From: Acidobacteriota bacterium
GTDB taxonomy: Bacteria; Acidobacteriota; Vicinamibacteria; Vicinamibacterales; JACQTH01
Reading direction: 5' to 3'
Length of the DNA: 38,567 nt
Assembly: GCA_016178075.1 (NCBI GenBank)
Contig: JACOUA010000062.1
Span: 1-38,567, forward strand
How positions within the stretch are numbered: position 1 is the stretch's first letter; each line of letters opens with the position of its first letter. Of the stretch, positions 8,651 through 9,849 are shown piece by piece. The translations under genes were made by a program, and so were the position numbers. Under the pieces are notes generated by a model, which had not been told where the DNA came from, ran no database searches, and worked only from the letters and a program-made list of their open reading frames with translations.

Positions 8651-9427
8651 GTGACCATCCATCAATCGCGTCTTCGGTTTTTCGTCGGCGCCGCCGCCGT
8701 TGCAGCCGCGCTGACGCTTTCGGCCATCGCGCTGACGGCGCAAGGGGGCCCCGCCCCGCAGACGCCCTTCGACTCCGCTCAGGGCAGGCGCCCGATGAAG
8801 ATCGGCCTCATCGGGTCCGGGCAGCAGGGCGGCGCGCTGGGCCTCTTGTGGGCGAAGGCGGGTCACGAGGTGCTCTTCTCGTCCCGCCATCCAGAGAACT
8901 TGAAAGATCTCGTCGCGCGCGCCGGGCCGAAGGCGCGTGCCGGCACGCCGCAGGAAGCCGCGACCTTCGGTGACGTCATTCTGATCGCCGTGCCGTACGG
9001 CGCAACGCCGCAAGTCGGGCGCGACTACGCGCCGCTGATGAAAGGCAAGATCGTGATCGATTGCGGGAACCCGCGCGAGGACCGCGACGGCCCGATGGCC
9101 AACGACGCGATCGCGAAAGGGACCGGCGTGGCGTCTGCGGAGTTTCTGCCGGGCGTCCGGCTTGTGCGCGCGTTCAACGCGATCAGCTTCACGATGCTGC
9201 AGAAAGAGGCGCATCGCGCCGGAGAACGGGTGGGGATCCCGGTGGCTGGTGACGATCAGGCGGCCGTCGCGACCGTCGTCAGGCTCGTCGTGGACGCGGG
9301 CTTCGACCCGGTGGTCGTCGGCCCGCTCTCGCGCGCCAGGGAGTTCGACCGGGGCACGCCTGTCTACGTGAAGGGCATGACCGCCCGTCAACTGCGCGAG
9401 GCCCTGAAACTCCCCCCGAGACCCTAG
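8651..9427 (+). CDS. NADPH-dependent F420 reductase-like / NAD(P)-binding oxidoreductase, secreted
   Basis: GTG start preceded by AGGAGG; signal peptide; MKIGLIGSGQQGGALGLLWAKAGHEVLFSSRHPENLKDL...FNAISFTMLQ. Confidence 0.85.
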   Translation: MTIHQSRLRFFVGAAAVAAALTLSAIALTAQGGPAPQTPFDSAQGRRPMKIGLIGSGQQGGALGLLWAKAGHEVLFSSRHPENLKDLVARAGPKARAGTPQEAATFGDVILIAVPYGATPQVGRDYAPLMKGKIVIDCGNPREDRDGPMANDAIAKGTGVASAEFLPGVRLVRAFNAISFTMLQKEAHRAGERVGIPVAGDDQAAVATVVRLVVDAGFDPVVVGPLSRAREFDRGTPVYVKGMTARQLREALKLPPRP

Positions 9428-9628
9428 CAGTCCGTGGTGCAAGTCCAGCGTCGCACCGAGACCGGCGATGCGCCCGGTCGACCACCCCAGCGCGGCTGCC
9501 GCGCTGGGGACGCCGGCTGGCAAGGCGCGACGACCGAGCATATCGGGAATATGTGAGGGAGGAGCAACGACGCCAGCCGCGATGCAGCGCCGGTCGAATG
9601 CAGCCGGACTTTCACCACGGACTGCTAG
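9424..9628. mobile_element. MITE-like element: 197 bp with ~18-bp TIRs flanked by CTAG direct repeats
   Basis: Left CTAG|cagtccgtggtgcaagtcc (9424-), right ggactttcaccacggactg|CTAG (-9628). Internal 11-bp perfect hairpin ccccagcgcgg/ccgcgctgggg. No ORF. Confidence 0.75.
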
Positions 9629-9849
9629 GCCGCAGAGCCGGCCGACTCGCACAACTTGCTGAGCACCAGTGGTTTGCCGCGCAGGATGTCGTGACAACCG
9701 CTGACAACCGGCGGCGCCAGGCCGGGCGAAAATAGTGCGTTGTCGCCGTATAATATTCAGTCAAGCTCACGGCGGGAAGCGGGCGTCTGCCGATACGTGG
9801 TGGGGGTGTCTTTCTGTACCTATTAAAGGATACAACGGCGAGGGAGCGA

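Follow-up and report, generated by a model that had tools for sequence, protein, structure and literature searches.

A CTAG-bounded MITE of Acidobacteriota with seating at stop codons and a conserved strand-specific fold

Directly behind the stop codon of a gene in an Acidobacteriota genome (GCA_016178075.1, contig JACOUA010000062.1) lies a short segment with inverted ends, bounded on both sides by CTAG. The window, i.e., the whole 38,567-bp stretch of DNA that was analysed, thus raises the question of what kind of element this is, how it came to be seated at a stop codon and what its hairpin-forming interior serves. The analysis supports the view of the earlier note that it is a bacterial MITE: it is short, has terminal inverted repeats (TIRs) and a CTAG target duplication, occurs in many dispersed copies, and has an empty site exact to the base in a relative as well as two orthologous loci from which it is absent. 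A non-autonomous MITE with IS5/IS1182-type mobilisation, seating at CTAG and stop codons, and a conserved strand-specific fold is the joint explanation that we consider highly likely.

The element, its copies and its target

The structures that had been read from the sequence alone, i.e., CTAG on both sides, an element of this length, TIRs of about 18 bp, an 11-bp hairpin and a stop codon shared with the upstream oxidoreductase frame, are all present (Table 1). That frame scored 63.7 bits with the NpdG model, under the model's cut-off. The TIRs follow the pattern CAGTCCGTGGTG[C/A]AAGTCC, for which 0.03 occurrences with up to three mismatches are expected by chance in the window. The left and right 19-bp repeats differ by one mismatch, the complementarity of the arms is 93% over 27 nt with CTAG counted in, and the pairing of the arms runs well past 18 bp, across most of the element. 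The window element is short and contains no transposase or other genes.

Table 1. Coordinates of the features at the studied locus (positions in the window)
Feature	Position	Strand	Remark
Upstream ORF, NADP-binding reductase-like, 266 aa	8627-9427	+	ends in a TAG stop, 9425-9427, contained in the left CTAG
CTAG on the left, first copy of the duplicated 4-bp target	9424-9427		
Whole element, 197 bp	9428-9624	+	+ is the strand with the conserved fold
Left terminal inverted repeat CAGTCCGTGGTGCAAGTCC	9428-9446	+	
Extra segment, about 39 bp	9476-9514 (approximate)	+	contains the perfect 11-bp hairpin; borders drawn from alignment
Hairpin CCCCAGCGCGG-CTG-CCGCGCTGGGG	9485-9509		inside the extra segment
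Conserved core, apical part, AAGGCGCGA...GCAACG	9522-9569	+	has tandem G.A motifs as well as covarying pairs
Right terminal inverted repeat CAGTCCGTGGTGAAAGTCC	9606-9624	-	
CTAG on the right, second copy of the duplicated 4-bp target	9625-9628		

A BLAST search with the element against the window's genome gave 97 matches. The genome-wide search for the TIRs that the earlier note had proposed returned 69 matches, 27 of them exact, compared with 13 for the reversed control, and thus other copies with the same ends exist. In the relative G057, 217 places match the ends when one mismatch is allowed, compared with a single one for the control. Copies number dozens in the window's genome and about 100 in G057, and matches to the element are present in 31 of the 60 genomes of the relatives set; none was found in the viral contigs, phages and E. 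coli genomes searched. The commonest full form measures 158 bp between the duplications, about 39 bp less than the window copy, and one copy consists of 83 bp only. The internal hairpin described earlier does exist; it belongs, however, to the extra segment that most copies lack. Related hairpins stand at a different position in other copies, and when the hairpin was considered as a separate dispersed repeat, a similar one with a 9-nt loop was found at only two other sites of the genome. Several contigs of the window's genome (C12, C85, C137, C275, C316, C335, C365, C387 and C404) begin within or near copies, and since contigs start or end inside them, the repeats probably fragment the assembly.

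CTAG stands on both sides in 35 of 75 copies, and the flanking 4-mers are identical in 41, with pairs that include CTAA/CTAA, TTAG/TTAG, CCAG/CCAG and GTAG/GTAG. Where the left 4-mer is non-palindromic (31 copies), six pairs are direct, two are inverted and the remainder are unequal; we attribute the unequal flanks of some copies to decay or to other targets. One G057 copy interrupts a repeated sequence of which four other copies are empty. Two of the empty repeats read ...CGCGGGGG[G/A]CTAGACTCC, i.e., ...CGCGGGGG-[G/A]CTAG-ACTCC, with a single CTAG, while the filled repeat reads ...GGGGGCTAG-element-CTAGACTCC and carries CTAG twice. The comparison of empty sites thus agrees with the target duplication proposed in the earlier note. 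It could be argued that CTAG is instead a fixed palindromic part of the element ends, as the palindrome is continuous with the inverted repeats and flanks so many copies on both sides; the direct pairs of other 4-mers speak against this, and the single CTAG of the empty repeats already contradicts it, making such an explanation exceedingly improbable. Two orthologous intergenic regions of G001, a genome of the same genus, lack the element, although their divergence prevents a join exact to the base. As for the locus in the window, no ortholog of its left gene was matched at that place in the relatives. A separate G057 repeat, AGCCCCGCTACGCGGGGGCTAGACTCCTTGAACGG...TTCAAGGAGTCTAG (L244, L159, L139, L173 and L180), is apparently a second CTAG-bounded small element and acts as a target for the first.

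Transposase candidates and known systems

The suggested IS5-like target preference is borne out by comparison with IS5-family insertion sequences (ISs) and their derived MITEs, which share the 4-bp Py-T-A-Pu duplication; in E. coli IS5 it is mostly CTAG (PMC5493358). The element also shares with this family ends that start CAG with TGAAA further in, as in the resident IS L092, and differs from it in having no transposase and an interior unlike that of any resident IS examined. The L092 transposase scores above the IS5 NCBIfam cut-off, and L092 has CTAG duplications; its relatives in other genomes have CTAG, CTAA or GTAG duplications. The ends of L092 and its relatives resemble those of the element only loosely, and no L092 relative was found in G057, the genome with the most copies. 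Two further resident ISs, L095 (about 2.3 kb, C222) and L094 (about 2.0 kb, C377), have CTAG duplications and other ends.

In the search for a full IS with the same TIRs, likewise proposed earlier, no IS with complete A-type ends was present among the PF01609 transposase loci of G000 (the window's genome), G057, G018 and G049 or among the L092 relatives; a truncated candidate was found in G057 (L242:1160-1996, C278). It has a CTAG-CAGCCCGTGGTAGAAG end and is cut by the contig end, and its transposase fragment, the frame of which ends in the flanking CTAG, resembles both IS1182 and IS5 transposases below their cut-offs. L242 matches the ends better than L092 and is the best candidate for the autonomous partner, short of proof. 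Ends near L233, L235 and L238 were rejected as those of a partner IS, being neighbouring elements or chance matches. From the observed copies, ends, duplication and empty site we infer that a DDE transposase resembling those of IS5 and IS1182 would move the element in trans and recognise its CAGYCCGTGGTGNAAGTC ends, and that this enzyme would choose Py-T-A-Pu targets, mostly CTAG, and duplicate these 4 bp on insertion.

The family resembles Correia/NEMIS, ERIC and RUP elements (PMC2229807, PMC10969869) in a length of 100-200 bp, TIRs, a target duplication, high copy number and transcripts that would fold as long hairpins. Those elements target TA, whereas the window family is GC-rich, targets CTAG and is seated at stop codons; it further differs from them in that its conserved fold is specific to one strand and contains tandem G.A motifs, and in having one core with different ends across the phylum. 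REP/BIME sequences with a GTAG tag (PMC3733652, PMC2817692) share the intergenic position, palindromic structure, high copy number and a tetranucleotide beside the palindrome; REPs are 20-40 bp long, whereas members of the window family mostly measure 158-205 bp and have TIRs as well as a target duplication, and a REP/RAYT identity was rejected on these grounds. The element is of a known kind and apparently represents a new family; our literature search found no description of it.

Seating at stop codons

The earlier note had emphasised that the insertion preserves the stop codon and thereby the protein. This was supported and proved general to the family, although it is largely a consequence of the rarity of CTAG inside genes. 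With gene ends called by a simple open-frame and GC3 rule, and with control CTAGs taken from the fetched loci, the TAG or TAA of the flanking 4-mer is the stop of a coding frame in 36 of 75 copies with A-type or TGT-type ends, compared with 35 of 142 unoccupied CTAGs in the same loci (Fisher 7.6e-4) and 11 of 4000 random positions. Copies with CTAG on both flanks lie exactly at a gene stop in 27 of 43 cases (7e-6 against the free CTAGs); some of the excess in these 43 intact copies can reflect ascertainment, as a CTAG that contains a stop codon is protected from change. The arrangement in the window is typical of the family.

CTAG occurs 10 times in the window, compared with 122 occurrences expected from base composition, i.e., it is about 12-fold depleted. 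It is rare in the GC-rich genome and, where it occurs, frequently consists of the final base of a codon followed by a TAG stop. As anatomy and statistics indicate, insertion at such a stop leaves a complete CTAG beside the gene and the protein is unchanged. The seating can thus be explained, at least in part, by a target seldom met inside genes and frequent at stops, together with the loss of harmful insertions. The family offers a testable example of how a target word rare inside genes lets an element reach about 100 copies on stop codons with proteins unbroken.

The conserved fold and the core

Two features go beyond the earlier note, namely the covarying fold and a core common to elements with different ends. 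The + strand of the window element folds with a z of -10.4, and the usual 158-bp form is a single long hairpin, the pairs of which covary very strongly. When 20 genomes were aligned with one A-type copy each, duplication columns excluded, 59 pairs are formed in 95% of cells, both sides have changed in 31 of these pairs, and double-change cells number 114 compared with 35 in shuffles (0/500) and 4 to 22 with the pairing slid; because cells count sequences and not independent events, these numbers are not probabilities. Among the pairs that are mostly Watson-Crick, G.U exceeds A.C (43 vs 9), a bias seen in the outer stem and the inner part alike, and 45 related copies show a weaker bias in the same direction (66 vs 21). 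The excess of G.U over A.C indicates that it is one strand on which the pairing is maintained. Of 30 cores, 26 to 29 share each of three G.A/A.G tandems close to the tip, whereas the pairs between them swap freely (e.g., C-G 14, G-C 13). The pairing of the + strand hairpin is maintained by compensatory changes.

Arms of a palindrome can be homogenised by correction, and many copies within one genome are recent, so that the complementarity of the arms might reflect no more than recent common ancestry or correction templated by the hairpin, in which case the fold would not be under selection. However, the double changes persist with one copy per genome, and the preference for G.U, about 5 to 1, is unexpected under strand-symmetric correction or mutation. 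Moreover, the mismatched G.A positions are conserved between covarying pairs, and tandem G.A pairs fit the + strand and not its complement, which speaks against palindrome correction as the sole cause of the fold's persistence. We regard this explanation as quite improbable and retain selection on the fold. Rfam 15 covariance models gave no meaningful match up to E 10 in window positions 9300-9760, and in six other loci they matched only tRNA, outside the element.

The proposal that the hairpin terminates transcription of the abutting gene was not supported in the sense of an intrinsic terminator, as no T run follows it and the hairpin is copy-specific; the element contains no terminator-like site, the sole match lying outside it at position 9786. 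In a broader form, the hairpin could be a 3'-end signal selected by the host, either a terminator or an RNA-decay barrier for the abutted genes. Nearly half of the copies adjoin a stop codon, the stability of the fold is very high, and transcripts of Neisseria MITEs have been proposed as RNase III substrates regulating neighbouring mRNAs (PMC2229807). Apart from the missing T run and terminator-like site, this is opposed by the orientation of the copies at stop codons, which is 22 sense vs 19 antisense even though the conserved fold is strand-specific (an earlier count of A-type copies had given 20 sense and 12 antisense sides), and by free CTAGs, which are also often at stops. The parity speaks against selection on host mRNA 3' ends and weakens a role as RNA; a host signal is unlikely.

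Since a terminator is unsupported and the orientation is not tied to the neighbouring gene, the element probably is selfish, and the folded strand would aid its own spread or tolerance. We favour, at about even confidence, RNA produced by read-through of neighbouring transcription over single-stranded DNA as the form in which the strand would serve the element. A fold that acts as single-stranded DNA, e.g., a strand-specific hairpin aiding transposition or replication while a DDE transposase produces the CTAG duplications, is possible though less probable. Tandem G.A motifs are also stable in DNA, and both the strand-specific pairing that contains them and the lack of orientation bias relative to neighbouring genes would suit it; on the other hand, a 4-bp duplication with an exact empty site is the outcome of a double-strand DDE transposase, which makes a single-stranded stage unnecessary.

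The conserved core reads GCGCCCGG..GGCAAGGCGCGA..GCAACGC.GCC..CGGGATGC. Automatic clustering in the window's genome showed it with three end types, i.e., CAGTCCGTGGTG, a TGTCC/TGTGG group and TGCGTTTCACAATTACGG; a fourth, GGACCCGTCCCGGAATAAG, was seen by eye, and core-bearing elements of the relatives have additional ones. Nearly all of these elements have CTAG, TTA or TAA adjoining their ends, and some TGT ends resemble intermediates. A covariance model of the core matched 51 of 297 sampled Acidobacteriota genomes, often with CAG-type ends, and the majority of these genomes lie outside the window's order, to which the matches of a stricter DNA pattern of the core were confined. Beyond Acidobacteriota, the spread of the core rests on one plasmid, NZ_CP087953.1 of Desulfosarcina sp. 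BuS5 (L130:1455-1630), where its two conserved blocks recur at 98% identity in a hairpin element with other ends, TTA flanks and ordinary pairs in place of the G.A tandems; two places of the plasmid record match this element.

The core has been kept, and the outer ends, which differ between elements, may have been replaced or may have diverged faster. A further reading, which we hold only tentatively and consider rather doubtful, is that the core is a structured, mobile RNA or single-stranded DNA that has its own function and was carried by several unrelated transposon end sets, both inside a single genome and in two or more phyla. If true, the ends would be exchangeable and the hairpin would be the element itself. 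That a strand-specific covarying core outlives changes of the ends suggests the presence of a structured nucleic acid under selection in some bacterial MITEs, which thus may be more than deletion leftovers of insertion sequences.

Other core-bearing elements were observed in the window's genome. L117 (about 730-890, contig C89) has ends GGACCCGTCCCGGAATAAGTG, unlike those of the window element, and TTA flanks. Four full elements (L247-L250, contigs C389, C344, C346 and C229) carry the same core between ends TGTCCCGACTCAGTNATTCGTGG and are flanked by CTAG on either side; their inner stem differs from the window type. A hairpin GGGGNCCCCAACGCG..CGCGTTGGGGTGG stands at the same core position in L099, L101, L254, L030 and L002, i.e., in elements with different ends and from different genomes, and looks like a nested module.
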